From a virus, in IMG/VR virus record IMGVR_UViG_3300000313_000013, positions 1-24,096 of that record: 24,096 bases of DNA. One strand, 5' to 3'. The translations under genes and the position numbers were made by a program. The notes under the pieces are model-generated. The model was not told where the DNA came from and ran no database searches. It was given only the letters and a program-made list of their open reading frames with translations. Below are positions 993-10,329 of this stretch, in pieces (within the stretch, counting starts at the first letter, position 1; every line of letters begins with the position of its first letter).

Positions 993-1248
993 AGTCCCAA
1001 CGCGCGATACCGCGCGCCGTCACGCGATACGCTCGGAACGAGGGGCCTCCTGCATGGGGGGTCACCTCTTCCAAGTATCCATAGCCCTCGAGGATACGCG
1101 CACGTCGGGCCGTCGGGTTGTAGAACGGTGTGCCCTTGCGGCCTTCATAGCGAGCGACATGGACGCAGCGTGATCCTTGCTCCCACGACTCGACAAACCT
1201 GCCAAGCAGCAGCACACACTTGTCGCTCAAGACGACTTCTTCGGCCAT
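916..1248 (-). CDS. small winged-helix-like protein, third gene of the minus-strand operon
   Basis: The protein is about 110 residues. I favour the ATG at 1248, two codons after an alternative GTG at 1254; neither has a strong ribosome-binding site. Its start overlaps the end of the primase-helicase gene (stop at 1227-1229), which suggests translational coupling. The middle reads like a winged helix-turn-helix: a helix, then RRARILEGYGYLEEV, then a wing and FRAYRVTARGIARW. This resembles the ending of many phage and archaeal wHTH proteins. The C-terminal tail of about 25 residues is Arg/Pro-rich and lies antisense to the DUF2786 gene, so it may be little more than read-out to the next stop. 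No enzyme motif is visible. Confidence 0.6.
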   Translation of the reverse strand: MAEEVVLSDKCVLLLGRFVESWEQGSRCVHVARYEGRKGTPFYNPTARRARILEGYGYLEEVTPHAGGPSFRAYRVTARGIARWDFSGVAFPAQSPHQPLRQRPNRRRSG

Positions 1249-3101
1249 GACCACTTCACCCGTTCACCCACAGTGGTGGTCACGATGCCCACCTCTTTCT
1301 TAGCCTGATTGACTGTCTTGCTGTCGAAGCCCTTGGCCTCGGCGTCACGTCGCACCTCATCGGCCCATCGAGGACCGTTCTTCAACGACTGCTCAAGGAA
1401 CGCGCACACAACCTCCCACGAACTCGGGTTACCTGTGGCTTCGGCCTTGAATATCTCCTCAGCGGTGAAATTGACTGGGCCATCAAATGTGAAGGGTCTC
1501 GACCTCGATGATCTGAGCGAATAGGATTGCGGGCGTCCCAGCGGGCCGAGGTTGTTCTTGATGTGACAGACTACGCGGCCTTCATCCGGGTCTTCTGGGT
1601 TGCGTCCTACGATCAATACCGAACGCGCGGCGGCTGTCAGATCGATAGAGCCAATGCCCCGGTAGATCGACTTGTCTCGAGAGCCTTTAGTGAGGTGTCG
1701 CACAACGATAGCCGCGATATGGAAGTCTGATGCGATGCGAGCCAGGCGTGCCATTACTTCTCGCGTCTCGTTAGCCTTGTGCAGATCGACCTTGCCGCCA
1801 AGGTATGCGACTAGCGGGTCCATGATGAGTATCTTAGGCCTCACCCGCTCGATGTAACCTCGTATTTCCTCATCGCCATCTTCGTCCAGCGTGACCAGAC
1901 CATCCACCGCGAAGATGCGCCTATGGTTTGCGTTCAATGTATCGAGCCTTGGTCGGATCGTATCACCCAGACCGTCCTCGGCTGACATCAGCAGGACCCC
2001 ACCTGATACCGCGTCGCCCTTTTGCCCGGGCAGCTTTTCACCTTTTGACACGTAGGAGCACAGGGCAGTCGTGAACCATGATTTGCCAAGGCCGGGATCA
2101 CCCTCAACGATGGTCACCTTACCGTAGGCGATGTAAGGCCACCATAGCCAATCGACTTCCTCGGCCTCAACATCCGACAATCGAATGAGCTTGGCGGGTT
2201 GTGATGGTTTGCCCGCATCATGCCCGGCAAGCGGCGTGGCATGTCCATTCACTTTCTCATGCCGTCTATGCACCTTGGTCAGTTCGCGTCTCAGCTGACG
2301 ATCTTCGCCGCGTCGACCGTTGAACTTGTTCCAGACGCTATTTTTGATGAGGACAAATATCTCTTCGAATGATAGGCCTGTCTCGTGCAACTCGTTCTCG
2401 AGCTTCCAGATCATGTCCGACCGCACGCCTTGCGTTGCAGCCTTCGCCGTCAGCAGGCGCAGCGTGTCTTTCTTGATCTTGCCCTTCCATTTCTCAAGGA
2501 CCTCATCCATGTCAGCGTCGCCGGCGTCCTCATTATCGGTGTTGGGATCGCTCGGCTCAGGTAAGTCTTTCAGGCTGTATGCGTTGCTCTTGTGCCACAG
2601 TAACTTGCCACGCGGCGAAGACGGATACTTGTGATTACGCGTGCCGGGGATGCGCAAGACCTGCGTCAGGTCCCAGCCGCCGTGATCGGCGCCGTTCTTG
2701 TATGACAGCGCACGATTGACCTCCTCGATGTCGGATGCCTCTTGCTCAGACGTCAGGCGCCACAGTGCGGCGTATCGCCCCGGCGACGTCTGCCACGCAA
2801 TTTGAGGGACAGGAGCGCACTTGCCTGGTTGTTTCTCGTCGAGGTCGGCCCACAAAAACACGGTGTTTGCTGCGTACTCTTTGCGTCGCTTCTTCTGTGA
2901 GAACCCATGCGGGCAGAAATATAGGTTGTAGTGGTCAGTGCTGTGCCCATCGAAGAATTCCTCGAGCGTATCCTCGTCGATAGGCCACTTGAACAGATGC
3001 TCTTTCCAATCGCCGCCCTTCTTCGACTTCGTTGCAAGGCAAAAGAATTCTCCAGGCTGTTCCGACCAAACGGACAGCAAGAACCTTATTGCTTCGTGCA
3101 C
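1227..3101 (-). CDS. primase-helicase: AEP-type primase fused to RepA-like AAA ATPase
   Basis: This is a 624-residue protein starting at GTG 3101, with GAGG seven bases upstream. The N-terminal part (about 1-165) looks like an archaeo-eukaryotic primase/prim-pol domain: a DxD pair in FLWADLDE (D86, D88), RYAALWRLT (109-117), and WDLTQVLRIPGTRNHK (143-158), a signature of RepB/D5-type primases. The second part is an AAA_25/RepA-like hexameric helicase: Walker A GDPGLGKS (334-341), Walker B ILIMDP (424-429) and a conserved RHLTKG (468-473). The last ~65 residues look like a winged helix. The protein would lay primers and unwind the fork during phage replication. It is encoded opposite to the polymerase and recombination genes and follows a 57-residue HTH gene that overlaps its start. 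Confidence 0.9.
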   Translation of the reverse strand: MHEAIRFLLSVWSEQPGEFFCLATKSKKGGDWKEHLFKWPIDEDTLEEFFDGHSTDHYNLYFCPHGFSQKKRRKEYAANTVFLWADLDEKQPGKCAPVPQIAWQTSPGRYAALWRLTSEQEASDIEEVNRALSYKNGADHGGWDLTQVLRIPGTRNHKYPSSPRGKLLWHKSNAYSLKDLPEPSDPNTDNEDAGDADMDEVLEKWKGKIKKDTLRLLTAKAATQGVRSDMIWKLENELHETGLSFEEIFVLIKNSVWNKFNGRRGEDRQLRRELTKVHRRHEKVNGHATPLAGHDAGKPSQPAKLIRLSDVEAEEVDWLWWPYIAYGKVTIVEGDPGLGKSWFTTALCSYVSKGEKLPGQKGDAVSGGVLLMSAEDGLGDTIRPRLDTLNANHRRIFAVDGLVTLDEDGDEEIRGYIERVRPKILIMDPLVAYLGGKVDLHKANETREVMARLARIASDFHIAAIVVRHLTKGSRDKSIYRGIGSIDLTAAARSVLIVGRNPEDPDEGRVVCHIKNNLGPLGRPQSYSLRSSRSRPFTFDGPVNFTAEEIFKAEATGNPSSWEVVCAFLEQSLKNGPRWADEVRRDAEAKGFDSKTVNQAKKEVGIVTTTVGERVKWSWPKKSS

Positions 3102-3351: not shown

Positions 3352-3903
3352 ATGATCGTAGTAGAAGGACCCGACGGCGCGGGTAAGTCGACTCTCATCG
3401 CCGAGCTTGCTGCCACGTTGAATGTCGCGATACATCACTCTGGCGGTGCGGCGAAGAATACAGAGGAAATATTCGCACGCCATGACTCTCTCGTTGCTCG
3501 CATACGCGCGCGGGAACTATTTGTTTTTGATCGTGCATCGGTAATCAGCGACAGCGTCTATGGCCCGGCGTTGCGGGGGGGCACTCCTTTCTTCGCACGT
3601 CCCGAAGCGATCTATGAGTTGGCCGACGTGTTGGTCGTTCCGATCATCTACTGCCGTCCCCCTCGTCACGTCATCGCCGACAACGCGGGACGTCCGCAAC
3701 CGGAGAAGGCGTACCGCAACTTCGCGAAGAAGCCGTCGGACATCGCGCGCATTGTCGAGTGTATCCCCGACATCATCAAGCGCTACGACATCATCATGGG
3801 CAACTTCAGGCACTGGACATATGACTACACCGGCCTGACTTCGTCCTTGACGGTGCCCGCCTTGCGCGGGCTGATAAGCGCCTATCTTCCCAGCCTCGTG
3901 TAA
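3352..3903 (+). CDS. P-loop deoxynucleoside monophosphate kinase-like protein
   Basis: This is a 183-residue protein; GGAG at 3342-3345 precedes the ATG. The P-loop is at the very N-terminus (EGPDGAGKST, residues 5-14), as in thymidylate kinases. FVFDRASVISDSVYG (57-71) contains the Asp-Arg motif (D60, R61) that contacts the nucleotide in this family. The length is near the 200 residues usual for the TMK/dNMP-kinase group. Such enzymes convert dNMP to dNDP with ATP. The next genes are a pyrophosphohydrolase and TS-fold proteins, so the substrate may be the modified nucleotide made by the cassette (inference). The family assignment is good; which nucleotide it uses cannot be read from the sequence. 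Confidence 0.85.
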   Translation: MIVVEGPDGAGKSTLIAELAATLNVAIHHSGGAAKNTEEIFARHDSLVARIRARELFVFDRASVISDSVYGPALRGGTPFFARPEAIYELADVLVVPIIYCRPPRHVIADNAGRPQPEKAYRNFAKKPSDIARIVECIPDIIKRYDIIMGNFRHWTYDYTGLTSSLTVPALRGLISAYLPSLV

Positions 3904-3913
3904 GGAACACATC

Positions 3914-4477
3914 ATGAGTACCACGACTACCGAACCGTCTATCTCGCAGAGCAAGGTGATGGTCGCATTGAGCGAAGTAGGCGAGTGCGTCCGTATGCTC
4001 GCTGAGCTCATCAACTCCCCCGACAACCCGCTTAAGCGCGGGCAGATCGCGGTGATGCTCGAGCGCGCTGCACAACGGCTAGTTCCCGGCCCTGTCAATC
4101 AGCTGGGGGATATTCACGACTTCCACACCAAGTTTGGCCTCGCCTACGCCGGCGATCCTCGTTTGTTGCCGAGAGATTTGCACATCTTTCGCGTCAGTTT
4201 CATGGAAGAAGAACTGCAGGAATTCGACTCGGCCTATATGGACGACGATCTAACCAAGGCGTTGGACGCGTTGGTCGATCTGGACTACGTTCTCAAGGGC
4301 ACCGTGCATCTCATGGGCCTCAGCGCTGTGTATCCGCGCGGGTGGGCTCGGGTGCATCGCGCCAACATGCAGAAGATCCGGGCCGAGAAGCCCGGCGACA
4401 GCAAGCGAGGTTCTACCTTCGACGTTATCAAGCCCGAGGGTTGGATCGCGCCTGACCTGTCCGACCTAGTGAAGTGA
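3914..4477 (+). CDS. all-alpha (MazG/HisE-like) dNTP pyrophosphohydrolase
   Basis: This is a 187-residue protein with AAGGA before the ATG. The C-terminal two thirds match the all-alpha NTP pyrophosphatase fold: IHDFHTKFG (67-75), the metal-binding FMEEELQEF (96-104), KALDALVDLDYVLKGT (115-130) with D118, D122 and D124, then VHRANMQKI (147-155). These are the acidic clusters of the EExxE...D/ExxD metal site. The first 60 residues form an extra helical region. Members hydrolyse dNTPs to dNMP and PPi; T4's dCTPase belongs to the same superfamily. Here the enzyme could remove a normal dNTP from the pool and supply dNMP to the TS-fold proteins downstream (inference). Its stop overlaps the next gene's start region. 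Confidence 0.8.
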   Translation: MSTTTTEPSISQSKVMVALSEVGECVRMLAELINSPDNPLKRGQIAVMLERAAQRLVPGPVNQLGDIHDFHTKFGLAYAGDPRLLPRDLHIFRVSFMEEELQEFDSAYMDDDLTKALDALVDLDYVLKGTVHLMGLSAVYPRGWARVHRANMQKIRAEKPGDSKRGSTFDVIKPEGWIAPDLSDLVK

Positions 4478-5298
4478 TGACGACACTACTTGAGGAGTAT
4501 GCCCGCTTCGTGTTGGAGGTGGGGCATACTCCCGAACTGATCGTAGCCGGCGTCCAGCGTATCCACAGGGACGTCGGCTGGTCTATTCGTCCGGACGTGT
4601 TCTTTGACGGCTCGATGACGTTGGCACACACCGGATACACGAAGAACAAGCTGGGGGCCCTCGAGCGCAACTACTACAACCCGGTCAGCATCAAGCGAGC
4701 GAAAGCCGACCTTGCCTGGAGGATCAAGAACAAGAAGTATGGTAGTGGCGCCTTTGATTTTCGCGGCGAGCCGAAGAAGGGCACGAAGCAGGACTACTGC
4801 TTGCAATCGTGCGTCATCTCGTTCTATCCACCGAAGGGTTACACCACAGTCCAGGTGTTCTGGCGCACGGCTGAGCTGCTCAAGCGATTCCGCGGAGACA
4901 TCCTCTTTTTGCGTGACTTCATCCTGCCCCACTTCAGCGAAGAGTTCGCACAAGCGCCTATTCATCAAGTAGACTTCAGGTTTGCCAACGCGACGTTCCA
5001 TCCGATGTATACCATCTTGCTCGTGTCGCAAGTGCCTGACTGGATGGTGCACTTTAACCGGATCAAGCAGCATAACCCTCGGCTGTTCCGGTCGATGATG
5101 TATTGGGGGTGGCGGTATGTGTGCGACACATCGGCCTCTATTGACTCGTACTCATCCGCGCGTCAAGTTCGCGTGATCGCTAATCGCGTGACGCCTCCTG
5201 ACCGTATGCTTCGTTTTCGAGGCTACGTCGAGCGACGGTTGATGGAGAACCTCGACGACTATCCGAAGAGCGTGCAGTCTTTCTACAGGGGAAAGTGA
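4477..5298 (+). CDS. divergent thymidylate-synthase-fold protein (first of a tandem pair)
   Basis: This 273-residue protein starts at ATG 4477, which overlaps the preceding TGA (a GTG one codon earlier is possible), so translation is probably coupled. On its own it is hard to recognise. Lined up with the following protein it shares C112, then after 18 residues FWRTAELLKRFRGD (R130, E133, D141), then FHPMY (H175). In thymidylate synthase these correspond to the nucleophilic Cys, the Arg-Ser-x-Asp motif, the position of Asn177 and the His near Tyr209. The TS phosphate-binding SRR motif before the Cys is not obvious, so catalysis may differ. It may be a second base-modifying enzyme or a partner subunit of the next protein. 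The homology is my own by-eye alignment. Confidence 0.6.
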   Translation: MTTLLEEYARFVLEVGHTPELIVAGVQRIHRDVGWSIRPDVFFDGSMTLAHTGYTKNKLGALERNYYNPVSIKRAKADLAWRIKNKKYGSGAFDFRGEPKKGTKQDYCLQSCVISFYPPKGYTTVQVFWRTAELLKRFRGDILFLRDFILPHFSEEFAQAPIHQVDFRFANATFHPMYTILLVSQVPDWMVHFNRIKQHNPRLFRSMMYWGWRYVCDTSASIDSYSSARQVRVIANRVTPPDRMLRFRGYVERRLMENLDDYPKSVQSFYRGK

Positions 5299-5300
5299 CG

Positions 5301-6173
5301 ATGCGATATGCTAACTTCGAGGTCGCCCGTAACACGCTGGCGCGCGTTCTGTTGCACGCAGGTTCCAAGGTCAAGACTGAGCGATGGCAGGCGCTCGATG
5401 TGTCGAAAGACCCCTCGTTCCAGATGGTGGAGACTCTGTTCGCCGAGGTGTCGGTGGCCATCGAAACCGAGGATTTGGAGAGCTTACGGTCGTCCATCGG
5501 TCCCAACCTACCATGGGCTGACGATCACTTCGTCGAGCGTGTCAGTGGTCGACCCATCAATCCCGGTCTTCAATGGCGGTACTGGCCGTATGCGCACAGC
5601 GCAGATCGTCACCGTGTTGACGGCGGCCAGTTCAACCACAACTACATGGAGCGCTACTGGCCCCGCCACGCGGCGCGCTTCAATGTCGGCACAGACACGG
5701 TGCAGGAGTTTGACGCCATCGCCGGCGAGGTGTGGGGGCCGGGTTGGGATGATCGCGCGACGGGAGTGGAACCCGCTATGGGCCTGCGAGCGCCCTATGG
5801 CGACCTACAGGGCGTTGTAAGGCTTCTCGCGAACGAACCCACCACTCGGCAAGCTTACATGCCTGTGTGGTTCCCTGAGGACACGGGCGACGCACACAAC
5901 GGCCGCAAGCCTTGCAGCATCGGCTATCACTTCATCATGCGAGACGCCCAACTGCATGTCACCTACCACATTCGCTCCTGTGACTTCGTGCGACACTATC
6001 GAGACGACGTCTATCTCACTGTGAGGCTACTCCTGTGGGTACTCAACGAGTGTCGCAAGCTGAACCCAAAGTGGGAGGATGTCAGGCCTGGCCTTTTCAA
6101 TATGTATATCGGCTCGCTGCATTGTTTCGTCAATGATGTGATCCTGATCCGCAAGGACCTGAGCCCCCCATGA
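5301..6173 (+). CDS. thymidylate-synthase-family nucleotide C5-(hydroxy)methylase, predicted dCMP-specific
   Basis: This 290-residue protein starts at ATG 5301, with GGGGA eight bases upstream; the earlier in-frame GTG at 5295 is too close to that site. Core TS motifs are clear: APYGDLQGVVRLLANEPTTRQ (164-184) with the phosphate-binding R183, MPVWFPED (187-194), the nucleophile C205 in KPCSIGYHF, and RSCDF (225-229) exactly 20 residues after the Cys, as in E. coli TS. The residue 11 after that Arg, which is Asn177 in E. coli TS and selects dUMP, is Asp (D236). Asp at this place is linked to dCMP use, as in T4 dCMP hydroxymethylase. The product could be 5-methyl- or 5-hydroxymethyl-dCMP. The family is sure; the substrate is inferred. 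Confidence 0.85.
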   Translation: MRYANFEVARNTLARVLLHAGSKVKTERWQALDVSKDPSFQMVETLFAEVSVAIETEDLESLRSSIGPNLPWADDHFVERVSGRPINPGLQWRYWPYAHSADRHRVDGGQFNHNYMERYWPRHAARFNVGTDTVQEFDAIAGEVWGPGWDDRATGVEPAMGLRAPYGDLQGVVRLLANEPTTRQAYMPVWFPEDTGDAHNGRKPCSIGYHFIMRDAQLHVTYHIRSCDFVRHYRDDVYLTVRLLLWVLNECRKLNPKWEDVRPGLFNMYIGSLHCFVNDVILIRKDLSPP

Positions 6174-6445
6174 TCGGTGAGGTTTTCACTTACCGCGAGG
6201 CTCATTGTGGGTACTGGATGGTCATGGCGCGTCGGAACAGCCGGGTGATCGTGTCCCCCCTGTTCTGGCGTGATCGAGAGTGGCCGACTCGGCAGTTCTC
6301 GCTCCGTGCGTTCAAGGAGGCCTTTCGACTCGTGACGAAGGCCGAGATACAATATTTGCACCCGGTCGTCCAAGCTCGGTATGACCGGGAATGTCTGCGT
6401 CTGTGGAGGACCATCGCGTGGAACACCGCCCAAGCCGTCAGATGA
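6170..6445 (+). CDS. small hypothetical protein between the TS-like and dCMP deaminase genes
   Basis: This 91-residue protein starts at an ATG that overlaps the TGA of the previous gene (ATGA), so it is coupled to it. It is rich in Arg, Trp and Tyr, with motifs such as FSLRAFKEAFRLV and YDRECLRLWRTI, and is predicted to be mainly helical in the second half. There is no membrane segment and no recognised family. Its fixed place between nucleotide-metabolism genes suggests an accessory role, but nothing in the sequence shows this. Confidence 0.6.
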   Translation: MIGEVFTYREAHCGYWMVMARRNSRVIVSPLFWRDREWPTRQFSLRAFKEAFRLVTKAEIQYLHPVVQARYDRECLRLWRTIAWNTAQAVR

Positions 6446-6891
6446 TGTTTATGGACATGGCGGAAGTAGCTGCGCGACGCAGCACTTGCTTCCGGGGTAA
6501 CATCGGTGCGCTGATCGTGTCAGGCACCAACATCTACGCCATGGGATACAACGGCCCGCCGTCTGGACATCCTCACTGTGCTGGTCAAGAGTGCCAGCTA
6601 GGTCCCACAGGGGGATGCGCGCGATCCGCGCACGCTGAGGACAACGCTATTCAGCGGGCTGGGTCGATGGCCTACGGGGCCGACCTTTACTGCACGTCCT
6701 CACCGTGCGAGCGGTGCGCCGAGAAGATCATCATGTTTCAACTCGGCCGGGTGTTCTACCGTCACCCATATCGGTCCTCCGCAGGCCTACAGAAACTCTT
6801 ACAAGCCGATATTCCGGTCTACCGGGTCACACCCGCGGGCTACATCGTCAGCGAGCTCACGGGCGATCTAATCGATCCACGGAGTCTGTAA
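6418..6891 (+). CDS. deoxycytidylate (dCMP) deaminase
   Basis: I place the start at GTG 6418 because GGAGGA (6405-6410) lies seven bases before it; ATG 6391 and ATG 6442 are alternatives in the same frame. This gives 157 residues. The zinc cytidine deaminase signature is complete: AHAEDNA (71-77, H72 and catalytic E74) and SPCERC (95-100, Zn ligands C97 and C100). The RSTCFRG entry and the GYNGPPSGHPHC insert (43-54) are typical of dCMP deaminases. The enzyme turns dCMP into dUMP. In this cassette it would share or compete for dCMP with the TS-fold enzymes. Its start overlaps the preceding gene by 28 bases and its end lies one base before the polymerase ATG. Confidence 0.92.
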   Translation: MEHRPSRQMMFMDMAEVAARRSTCFRGNIGALIVSGTNIYAMGYNGPPSGHPHCAGQECQLGPTGGCARSAHAEDNAIQRAGSMAYGADLYCTSSPCERCAEKIIMFQLGRVFYRHPYRSSAGLQKLLQADIPVYRVTPAGYIVSELTGDLIDPRSL

Positions 6892-6892
6892 T

Positions 6893-9340
6893 ATGCCCTC
6901 TTGCACTCGTTGCAAGCTTCACGAGTACGCCAACACTGTCTGCTTGCTCGGGTCGGGATCGGCCGTCAAGCGAGTGATGATCGTCGGCGAGGCGCCTGGT
7001 GAAGAAGAGGACAACCAAGGCAAGCCTTTCGTCGGTCGATCAGGCCAGATGCTCAACGAGATGCTCGAAGCCGTGGGTGTCGACCGAGAGGAGGTGTATG
7101 TCACCAACGCCGTCCATTGTCGGCCGCCGGACAATCGCACGCCCGACAAGAAGGAGATTGGCCAGTGTGACTACTGGCTCAAGAAAGAGATCGCTAAGGT
7201 AAAGCCCCGGTTCATCCTCACGCTCGGCAACGTCGCGGTGTTCGCGTTGACGGGAACCAAAGGTATCAAAGAGCTTCGCGGCAAGCCAATCGAGAAGAAG
7301 GGTACCGATCTCGGCCTTGAGACGGACGAGACGGTGTATGTGTTCCCGGCCTACCACCCGTCCTATGCGTTACGCGATCCGCGCAATCGACCGGTCCTCG
7401 AGCGCGACATCGCGCAATTCTTCGAGCTCGTGCGCAATGGCAAACCTAAGGCCGAAGAAGGACTACGCGTTCGCATCATCCTGTCGCGTGACGAGCTAGA
7501 AGAGGCCATCGAAGATATCCACCAGAACGACTTGCTGTCCTGGGACACTGAGACGTCTGGACTCGACCCATTCGCTCCTGGCGCGTGGATGACTTCCTTT
7601 GGCGTTGGCACGCACAAGTACCAGTGGTGCCTCCCGCTCAACCACCCAGAGGGCCCGATCTATCAGAAGTTCAACACGCAGAAGCGATGGGTGAAACAGC
7701 TGGTAACGGCGATGCGCGGTAAGACCATCGTCGCGCAGAACGGCAAATTCGACTCGCTGACTCTGCGTGTCTTGTTTGGCGAACGACTGCTAACAGACTT
7801 CGACACGATGCTCGCCCACTACCAACTCGACGAGAATTCCTATCATGGGCTAGATCACCTCGCGAGCCACTACTTCGGTGCATCGGAGTATGACATACCG
7901 CTCAAGGAGAAGCATGGTTTCGGTCCGCTCGACCGACACTGCAAGTATCTCGCACAAGACCTGAACTTCACGCGACGGCTGTATTACGTGCTGAAGAAAG
8001 AACTCGCCAAGGATCCAGCCACAGAGCGTCTGTTCTACGAGCTGACGATGCCTGTGGCGCGCATGTATGCAGACGCCGAATTCAACGGCGTCTATGTTGA
8101 TCCGAAGAAACTCAAGGACGCGTGGAAGTATTGGGACAACATCGAGAAGGAGAAGCTCGCTGAATTGAACAGGCTCGTGCCAGATGACCGGACACGCAAG
8201 AACAAGAAGACCAAAGAGATTGTCGTCGGCATCAACTGGAATTCGGCGCAACAGGTCGCAGACGTCTTATTCAATCGCTTTGGTTTGAAGCCGCTCGAGA
8301 TGACAAACGGGGGCAAAGGCGAACCCAAGCCAAGTGTGTCTGAGTCGGTACTGCTGCGCCTTGCTGACAAGTCACCGATCCCGCGACTGTTGCTCGACTA
8401 CCGTGAGGCCGTCAAGAACAAAGGAACTTTCGTAGAAGGGTGGATGAAGAGGTGTTATGACAATCGGATGCACCCGACCTTCAAAGTTCATGGCACTGTC
8501 ACAGGACGCCCGAGCTGCGAAGAGCCCAACCTTCAGCAAACGCCGCGCGACGCGCGCCTACGCAGCCTAATTACCGCACCCCCCGGATGGACATTGATCG
8601 ACGCCGACCTGTCGCAAGCTGAGCTACGTATCACCGCCGAGATGTCCGGTGATCGTGAGCTCAAACTCAGTTACCAAACTGGCGTAGATGTCCACACGCT
8701 GACAGTGCAGCGTATCTTCGGCATCATGAAGCCGACGAAGGAAGAACGCAAGAAAGGTAAAGCGATCAACTTCGGCTTTGTGTATGGCATGGGCTGGAAG
8801 AAATTTAAGGACTACGCGCGCGACAACTATGGCGTGGACTTCACAGACGCCGAGTGCAAGCGGATCAGGAAATACTTCTTCCGCCTATATAATGGTCTGC
8901 CCGACTGGCATATGCGTCAACGCAGGTTCGCCAACCGAAATGGCTACGTGCGCTCGATCATCGGACGCAAGCGTCGCCTACCTGAAGCGCAGTTGACAGG
9001 CAGCGATCCCCACACTGAGATGAGGAAAGCCGAGGCCGAGCGTCAGGCCATCAACTCGCCTGTCCAATCGCTCGCAAGCGACATCAACTTGCTTGCAACC
9101 GTCCAGCTCCATCGGGAGTTTGGTGAGACTGACTATTTCCGCATGATCGGCACGATCCACGATGCCATCTTGATGGAAATACGAGACGACATGGTCGATA
9201 CCGTGCTGCCTCGCGTCAAGCAAGCGATGGAGTGGCCTGACAAGTTCAACGAGTGGGATATTCGGATGTCCGTCCCCATAATCGCAGAAATCGAGTGGGG
9301 TCCGTGGGGCGCAGGAACAGTGTGGGAGCCAAACAAGTGA
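6893..9340 (+). CDS. family-4 uracil-DNA glycosylase fused to A-family DNA polymerase
   Basis: This is an 815-residue fusion. Residues 1-180 are a family-4 UDG: four Fe-S cysteines (C4, C7, C76, C92), GEAPGEEED (32-40) followed by KPFVGRSGQ, and HPSYAL (155-160). Residues 195-375 are a 3'-5' exonuclease: WDTETSGLD (D218, E220), NGKFD (N283, D287) and YLAQD (Y352, D356). The rest is Pol I: motif A DADLSQAELR (D572), motif B RKKGKAINFGFVYG (R619, K623, F627, Y631) and motif C HDAILME (H756, D757, E762). There is no 5'-nuclease domain. It is the likely replicative polymerase, with uracil removal built in. All catalytic residues appear intact, and the fusion lies in one uninterrupted frame. Confidence 0.95.
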   Translation: MPSCTRCKLHEYANTVCLLGSGSAVKRVMIVGEAPGEEEDNQGKPFVGRSGQMLNEMLEAVGVDREEVYVTNAVHCRPPDNRTPDKKEIGQCDYWLKKEIAKVKPRFILTLGNVAVFALTGTKGIKELRGKPIEKKGTDLGLETDETVYVFPAYHPSYALRDPRNRPVLERDIAQFFELVRNGKPKAEEGLRVRIILSRDELEEAIEDIHQNDLLSWDTETSGLDPFAPGAWMTSFGVGTHKYQWCLPLNHPEGPIYQKFNTQKRWVKQLVTAMRGKTIVAQNGKFDSLTLRVLFGERLLTDFDTMLAHYQLDENSYHGLDHLASHYFGASEYDIPLKEKHGFGPLDRHCKYLAQDLNFTRRLYYVLKKELAKDPATERLFYELTMPVARMYADAEFNGVYVDPKKLKDAWKYWDNIEKEKLAELNRLVPDDRTRKNKKTKEIVVGINWNSAQQVADVLFNRFGLKPLEMTNGGKGEPKPSVSESVLLRLADKSPIPRLLLDYREAVKNKGTFVEGWMKRCYDNRMHPTFKVHGTVTGRPSCEEPNLQQTPRDARLRSLITAPPGWTLIDADLSQAELRITAEMSGDRELKLSYQTGVDVHTLTVQRIFGIMKPTKEERKKGKAINFGFVYGMGWKKFKDYARDNYGVDFTDAECKRIRKYFFRLYNGLPDWHMRQRRFANRNGYVRSIIGRKRRLPEAQLTGSDPHTEMRKAEAERQAINSPVQSLASDINLLATVQLHREFGETDYFRMIGTIHDAILMEIRDDMVDTVLPRVKQAMEWPDKFNEWDIRMSVPIIAEIEWGPWGAGTVWEPNK

Positions 9341-10329
9341 CCTTCGTAGTTCATCAGAGCACCATCAAGTGTTGGCGTCGGTGCAAGAGGCAGTATTACT
9401 ACAAGTATGTGCTCAGGCTCGTGAAGCGTCGCACAGGCGCACCGTTGATCCGCGGCACGATAGTTCACAGCATGATTGAGGCTCAAGCTGAAGGACGCGA
9501 CCCATGGCAAACACTCGCCCAGGCTGAAAAAGACATGGGCAAGCTGTTCGCTGAGGAGCGCGAGTACTACGGCGACATCATTGGTGACATTCGCTTGCTG
9601 ATGGAAGGATACTTCGACTGGTACAAGAAAGACCCACTCACACCGATCCCGCTGCACCCGGGCAAGAAAGCGAAGAAGACGGAGCATGAGTTTGAAGTCG
9701 ACCTGACCCCCTCAATCCGGCTGAAGGGCAAGATCGACATGCTCGCAGAGGATCGTCGCGGGCACCAGTGGCTAATGGACCACAAGACTCACAAGCAGCT
9801 GCCGTCCGGTGACTTGAAATACTCAGACATTCAATCAGCGCTCTACATCTTTGCTGTCCGCATTGTCAGCAAGGTGAGGCCAATTGGTGTGGCGTGGAAC
9901 TACATCCGGTGGAAGAGGCCGACGAAGCCTGAGGTGCTCAAGAATGGTCAGATGAGCCGTCGCGACATTGACACCACGTGGGCCGTGTATGAGCAAGCAC
10001 TGATCGAGGCCGGCCTCAAGCCAAAAGACTATCAAGACATGCGCGAGAAGCTCGACGGGAAGGAGAGCGAGTTCTACGCGCGACACTACTTGCCAGTGAA
10101 TGACACGCTCTTGAACAAGCTCGTAGAAGAAGCACAGGTGACAGCCAGGGAGATTAAGCGTAAAGGAGGACACGATACTACCCGCACCATCGACCGTCAC
10201 TGCGACTGGTGCGACTACTACAGCATATGTCAAGCTCAACTGCGCGGTCTGGATGACGCCTTCATCCGGAAGCATGATTTCAAGGAGGCTGTGGATGAAG
10301 AGGCCGAGAAGGACGAAGAGTCCGCGTGA
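9337..10329 (+). CDS. Cas4/RecB-like PD-(D/E)XK nuclease with probable Fe-S cluster
   Basis: This 330-residue protein starts at GTG 9337, which overlaps the polymerase TGA (GTGA) and has GGGAG upstream. It shows the RecB-nuclease order: QYYYKY (19-24), GTIVHSMIE (40-48, H44), KGKIDML (130-136, D134), MDHKTHK (147-153, D148 and K150) and QSALY (166-170). An N-terminal Cys pair (C12, C16) and C-terminal CDWCDYYSIC (C289, C292, C298) fit the cysteine layout of Cas4/AddB-type [4Fe-4S] nucleases. The adjacent Sak4-like ATPase suggests a recombination pair: end resection plus annealing or strand exchange. It carries an acidic C-terminal tail (DEEAEKDEESA). Confidence 0.9.
   Translation: MTFVVHQSTIKCWRRCKRQYYYKYVLRLVKRRTGAPLIRGTIVHSMIEAQAEGRDPWQTLAQAEKDMGKLFAEEREYYGDIIGDIRLLMEGYFDWYKKDPLTPIPLHPGKKAKKTEHEFEVDLTPSIRLKGKIDMLAEDRRGHQWLMDHKTHKQLPSGDLKYSDIQSALYIFAVRIVSKVRPIGVAWNYIRWKRPTKPEVLKNGQMSRRDIDTTWAVYEQALIEAGLKPKDYQDMREKLDGKESEFYARHYLPVNDTLLNKLVEEAQVTAREIKRKGGHDTTRTIDRHCDWCDYYSICQAQLRGLDDAFIRKHDFKEAVDEEAEKDEESA

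Follow-up and report, generated by a model that had tools for sequence, protein, structure and literature searches.

The window, that is, the whole 24,096-nucleotide stretch analysed here, is a 24-kb IMG/VR record of a virus of bacteria, and because the record is only 24 kb long the genome is probably incomplete. Between positions 3352 and 9340 its + strand carries a tightly packed cassette in which genes overlap or are separated by a few bases, in the 5' to 3' order kinase, pyrophosphohydrolase, protein C, protein D, a 91-aa ORF, dCMP deaminase and a UDG-PolA fusion. The original prediction had described a tightly coupled, one-directional cassette, and every gene that it named was found. Its gene list was correct, but the 91-aa ORF between D and the deaminase and the UDG domain of the polymerase have to be added, and the start of the deaminase moves from 6391 to 6442.

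The first gene (3352–3903, + strand like all genes of the cassette) encodes a 183-aa protein that matches the thymidylate kinase family PHROG_761 (1.3e-11). When compared with solved kinases, the profile of its family finds YorR (1.6e-11) and the poxvirus TMPK entry 2v54 (1.9e-6), and the protein looks like a putative dNMP kinase of the P-loop type. It is followed by an all-alpha NTP pyrophosphohydrolase of the MazG/PRA-PH type (3914–4477), which matches PF01503 (PRA-PH, 1.8e-8) and, by profile, the MazG-like protein DR2231 (3.1e-15); the enzyme is presumed to convert dCTP and dUTP to dCMP and dUMP. Proteins C (4477–5298) and D (5295–6173) come next. The 91-aa ORF (6170–6445) shares ATGA overlaps with D and with the deaminase, matches nothing in Pfam or PHROG and has one clear relative (L035:11643–11888, 1.7e-6). 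The deaminase is recognised by PF00383 (3.8e-19) and by the dCMP deaminase family PHROG_174 (4e-38), and most likely spans 6442–6891, since the later start forms an ATGATG overlap. Finally, the polymerase (6893–9340) combines a family A polymerase domain (PF00476, 2.6e-78) and a 3'-5' exonuclease (PF01612, 8.7e-17) with a family-4 UDG domain at its N-terminus (PF03167, 2.2e-35; TIGR00758, 8e-50). A simple regular expression recovered the UDG motif in 20 of 72 relatives; Pfam searches of seven relatives took its place.

The neighbours on both sides belong to the replication module. A RepA/RecA-like ATPase with a primase-like N-terminus (1227–3101, − strand; PF13481, 1.8e-22; PF16793, 5.6e-8) diverges upstream. 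The conserved downstream neighbour is a Cas4/PD-(D/E)XK exonuclease (9253–10329, + strand; PF12705, 3.5e-23), which lies outside the modification pathway.

The same gene order is found in Serratia phage Serbin, Pseudomonas phages PMBT14, Almagne and Lebethron, Brevundimonas phage Strzyga, Yersinia phage P744, a Desulfofustis phage, Gordonia phage Gibbous, Mycobacterium phage FF47 and Curtobacterium phage Shrew; the C homologue of the actinobacteriophages is very divergent and its placement partly positional. D is also present in Muddy. Among the 76 D loci flanked on each side by 2 kb or more, C accompanies D in 68, the deaminase in 70, the polymerase in 69, the kinase in 64 and the pyrophosphohydrolase in 50, an arrangement far beyond chance. 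C precedes D in 45 of the 46 contigs with C, and the one exception ends just after C. A locus search with C alone returned nothing and a diverse C alignment was too divergent, whereas a closer subset of C sequences worked.

Two TS-fold proteins with aspartate at position 177

Protein D can be placed in the thymidylate synthase (TS) superfamily. Its match to the Pfam TS domain, PF00303, is weak but significant (7.9e-6, over the cut-off), and it carries the equivalents of ThyA Arg126 (R185), Cys146 (C207), Arg166 (R227) and His207 (H276), along with Asp169 (D230). At the column of Asn177 it has an aspartate, D238. The equivalents of R126, C146, R166, N177 (as Asp) and H207 are invariant in all 92 sequences. 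Two marks of canonical ThyA are absent from D, which has Asp rather than Asn at 177 and Ser/Thr rather than His at 147. AlphaFold predicts D with no more than fair confidence (pLDDT 73, falling to low values at 90–131).

Protein C has no Pfam match. Its AlphaFold model is better (pLDDT 90), and the listed Foldseek matches are all TS-fold proteins, the best being 9iqu (1e-5, probability 1.00); by hhalign, the C profile aligns with ThyA at an E of 3e-5. Counting from the GTG at 4474, Cys109 corresponds to ThyA C146, Arg131 to R166, Glu134 to D169 and Asp142 to N177, so that C joins the TS fold to a catalytic Cys and a phosphate-binding Arg. Cys109, Arg131 and Asp142 are invariant in 75 of 75 distinct C sequences, which share 20–30% identity with the C of the window, and a catalytic role for C is suggested by these three residues. 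C lacks an R126 equivalent and a conserved H207, and overall its conservation is far below that of D. Some relatives (Pseudomonas phages) have a third, minimal TS-fold family that also keeps the Cys, Arg and Asp. The C homologues of Serratia, Pseudomonas and MW202455 phages fall into PHROG_34294 and those of FF47 and Shrew into PHROG_13667; both families are without functional assignment, and are read here as TS-fold dCMP-type enzymes. The novelty of the locus is C, a TS-fold family without a Pfam match standing beside D.

Asp at the Asn177 position, the mark of the dCMP-specific branch, is thus present in both enzymes, as the original prediction had held. The N177D substitution makes TS act on dCMP instead of dUMP, and in MetaGPA Asp177 together with TS, PRA-PH and dCMP deaminase marks cytosine-modified contigs (PMC8670742). 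Because their active-site residues are invariant, C and D can be argued to be enzymes acting on a cytosine nucleotide.

A more conventional explanation is that the cassette supplies thymidylate, with a dCTP/dUTP pyrophosphatase, dCMP deaminase, TS and TMP kinase leading to dTTP. The enzyme classes do match, homologues are annotated as dUTPase, thymidylate kinase and thymidylate synthase, and a UDG-fused polymerase would suit a high dUMP pool. However, Asp177 is invariant in both C and D, and a second TS-fold enzyme would not be needed. Further, the 39 genomes with the cassette, some of which are fragments so that absences are lower bounds, contain ThyX in 22 cases (two of them inside the cassette), DHFR in none, and no ThyA-type (PF00303) gene other than D itself. 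Given these three counts, ordinary thymidylate synthesis is unlikely, and thymidylate supply is a very improbable purpose of the cassette.

Candidate chemistry of protein D

The original prediction drew a parallel to T4, in which gp56 (dCTPase), gp42 (dCMP hydroxymethylase), gp1 (dNMP kinase) and cd (dCMP deaminase) replace cytosine. Its core, a pathway that builds a 5-substituted dC nucleotide for DNA, is supported at the nucleotide level by the invariant Asp177, the ThyX and PF00303 counts and the MetaGPA association (PMC8670742); the close likeness to T4 did not hold up. If D were to work as in T4, it would be a methylene-THF-dependent dCMP hydroxymethylase acting by itself, the phage DNA would contain plain 5-hydroxymethyl-dC, and C would be a regulatory or structural paralogue. 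The members of the pathway are indeed of the same classes, acting on dCTP and dCMP; D shares Asp177, Asp169 and Ser/Thr147 (Thr in gp42) with the T4 enzyme; and an AU test does not reject a grouping of D with T4-type enzymes (p 0.44). However, Asp145 of T4 dCMP hydroxymethylase, located three residues ahead of the catalytic Cys, activates water and the D145N variant is inactive (PMC6400193), whereas this column, which is Asp in 16 of 16 T4-type, Xp15 and ctIqW sequences, is Arg in 59 of 59 non-redundant D sequences (Arg204 in the D of the window). T4 Gly173 is likewise replaced by His. These columns, like 143, 147 and 212, lie in the C-terminal half, where D aligns well. In a profile search of the PDB, AfhB outscores T4 dCMP hydroxymethylase for D (7.1e-8 against 1.6e-5). 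Here there are two TS-fold enzymes, and three in some relatives; C has no T4 counterpart, and the intact Cys, Arg and Asp in all 75 C sequences are unlike a dead paralogue. The polymerase is PolA here and PolB in T4. A T4-type role for D alone is therefore unlikely. For Glu58/60 of T4, which activates methylene-THF, the candidates in D are N71, E81 and E119, the N-terminal alignment being ambiguous; an attempt to read folate or flavin use of D from Glu58/Tyr94 was dropped as the alignments disagree.

AfhB is the solved protein nearest to D by phmmer, profile search and tree, and the AfhB structure 9iqu is also the best structural match of C. The entries 9iqc and 9iqu come from the RB69-type protein family and carry the titles dCMP hydroxylase AfhB and flavin-dependent monooxygenase with dCMP and FAD. 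RB69-type enzymes, as in RB69 and HY126, make 5-hydroxy-dCMP (PMC13390438). D and the RB69-type enzymes share HxF with Asp212, the motif D177-x-Tyr-Leu and a short C-terminus. In the tree D is sister to the RB69-type with 93% ultrafast bootstrap over 107 columns, while the AU test rejects no alternative (p 0.21–0.44 for D grouped with T4-type or XP12-type). As the AU test is not significant, D is not claimed to be a confirmed AfhB-type hydroxylase. D differs from the RB69-type in having Arg143 (Glu there) and in keeping Asp169 (Asn there), a residue that contacts folate in TS, which makes hydroxylation by D insecure. Further, no arabinosyl pathway is seen, and the RB69 enzyme fails to match the C profile. 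On balance, the sequence comparisons lean slightly towards 5-hydroxy-dCMP over 5-hydroxymethyl-dCMP as the product of D.

The comparison with XP12, also drawn in the original prediction, turned out to be weak. XP12 and Pamexvirus phages likewise have a pyrophosphohydrolase, an Asp177 TS and a dCMP deaminase beside replication genes, so D, with its Asp177, might simply methylate dCMP and place 5-methyl-dC in the DNA. However, XP12-like phages use a single TS and have no C. The XP12-type marks, taken from XP12-like relatives rather than from XP12, are Pro147 (Elanor, JWT), accompanied by Asn143, and a DHFR (Elanor, AXL1), in contrast to Ser/Thr147 in all D sequences and Arg143. Reductive methylation yields dihydrofolate, and the DHFR found in AXL1 and Elanor is absent from all 39 genomes here. 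Methylation of dCMP by D is accordingly most improbable.

A two-enzyme pathway to modified cytosine

Downstream enzymes known from other systems were also sought. GT2 and GT4, which together made up the genome-wide glycosyltransferase search, were found in none of the 39 genomes, unlike in T4, and Pfam detected no glycosyltransferase among 74 accessory proteins of complete or near-complete relatives. The MetaGPA/Xp15 cassette for 5-carbamoyloxymethyl-C shares the Asp177 TS, PRA-PH and dCMP deaminase but requires a carbamoyltransferase; a search for that enzyme, with Xp15 as positive control, was negative in all 39.

From the gene content, order, conservation, active-site residues and folds observed at these loci, we infer a pathway in which D and then C make a C5-substituted cytosine deoxynucleotide for the phage polymerase, a reading to which we give a probability of about one half. 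The pyrophosphohydrolase would convert dCTP (and dUTP) to the monophosphate, lowering unmodified dCTP and supplying dCMP. D, with its Cys nucleophile and Asp177, would act on dCMP and place an oxygenated group onto C5; the product would be 5-hydroxy-dCMP if D resembles AfhB/RB69, or 5-hydroxymethyl-dCMP if it resembles the T4 enzyme. C would use a nucleotide of the same type, and its most likely task is a second step on the product of D through a renewed Cys addition at C6, by which it may stand in for the sugar transferase of T4-like and RB69-like phages. The kinase would then phosphorylate the product and PolA incorporate it, while the deaminase could turn leftover dCMP into dUMP for ThyX or the host TS.

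Could C and D instead form one obligate enzyme that performs a single reaction on dCMP? The active site of a TS is completed by phosphate-binding arginines that the other subunit contributes, and the R126 equivalent is present in D and missing in C; the two genes are strictly linked and appear translationally coupled through TGATG and GTGA overlaps. However, 8 of the 76 D loci have no detectable C, two C genes accompany one D in L013 and L030, and C is much less conserved than its supposed partner, which leaves an obligate heterodimer a rather remote prospect. Several of the D genes without C adjoin a homologue of C5-cytosine DNA methylases, mostly together with an asparagine-synthase-like amidotransferase. 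C5-methyltransferases attack cytosine C6 with a Cys. C is proposed as the second-step enzyme because, where it is missing, D is thus paired with another enzyme that would use Cys at C6 of cytosine. It is a tentative suggestion that C and the third, smaller family of the Pseudomonas phages form a new branch of the TS fold that attaches or swaps a C5 group on the product of D, again through Cys-C6 chemistry.

In the literature searched, which did not extend to the AfhB and glycosylated-5-hydroxycytosine papers, no base measurement was found for any phage with the cassette; the papers on PMBT14, AXL1 and the Durham collection contain none for a phage with C and D. The pairing of D with C suggests a cytosine modification so far undescribed in these phages.

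Collectively, the cassette probably makes an altered cytosine nucleotide with a compact and widely shared set of genes. Cytosine modification at the nucleotide level is of an already known kind, and its two-enzyme form appears to be new. If C does modify the product of D further, many phages that infect Proteobacteria and Actinobacteria would complete a hypermodified cytosine ahead of DNA synthesis and with no glycosyltransferase involved. If the pathway is correct, two PHROG families would gain a chemical role, and there would be a new TS-fold family to study, for which cultured isolates exist. Further, many small tailed phages annotated with a plain thymidylate synthase, among them Serbin, PMBT14, Gordonia phages and FF47-like mycobacteriophages, would carry modified cytosine, with consequences for how they are sequenced and how restriction and CRISPR act on them.

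Small proteins in phages with the cassette

In the window, a 91-aa ORF (6170-6445) is coupled both to D, the TS-superfamily protein, and to the dCMP deaminase, and its single clear relative lies in L035, where it adjoins C, the divergent TS-fold protein. In some related loci a third TS-fold protein, a minimal one of about 175-225 aa, is encoded in the interval that separates D from the deaminase (L022:12768-13313, L021:7257-7802, L023:12815-13378, L039:7413-7979, L054:7044-7577, L078:8216-8740 and L101:6821-7498). Cys, Arg and Asp are present in this protein, with an Arg-to-Asp spacing of 11 residues, and its conserved tail reads FAL(K/R)GNSNEKL. Searches of Pfam and PHROG with the copy from Pseudomonas phage PMBT14 returned no match. 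Separately, L016:2542-2823, in another phage with the cassette, is annotated as an acyl-carrier-like protein; a scan of accessory proteins gave a PP-binding match in one of 74.

Glycosylase domain of the polymerase

The window's DNA polymerase A (6893-9340) forms a fusion with a uracil-DNA glycosylase domain of family 4 containing the motif GEAPGEEED...PFVG. The polymerases of Serbin, PMBT14, L005 and Shrew likewise have this domain, and none was detected in those of Strzyga, FF47 and MW202777.

D loci without detectable C

Six D loci in which C was not detectable (L055, L081, L083, L090, L096 and L108) encode a C5-cytosine DNA methylase homologue; at L083:2955-5114 this homologue is split, and the intervening intein-like segment contains a DUF559/MTES_1575 nuclease domain. 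An asparagine-synthase/glutamine amidotransferase accompanies the homologue in most of the six, and some also encode an N6/N4 methylase-like protein and dUTPase_2. These loci possibly represent an alternative modification cassette.
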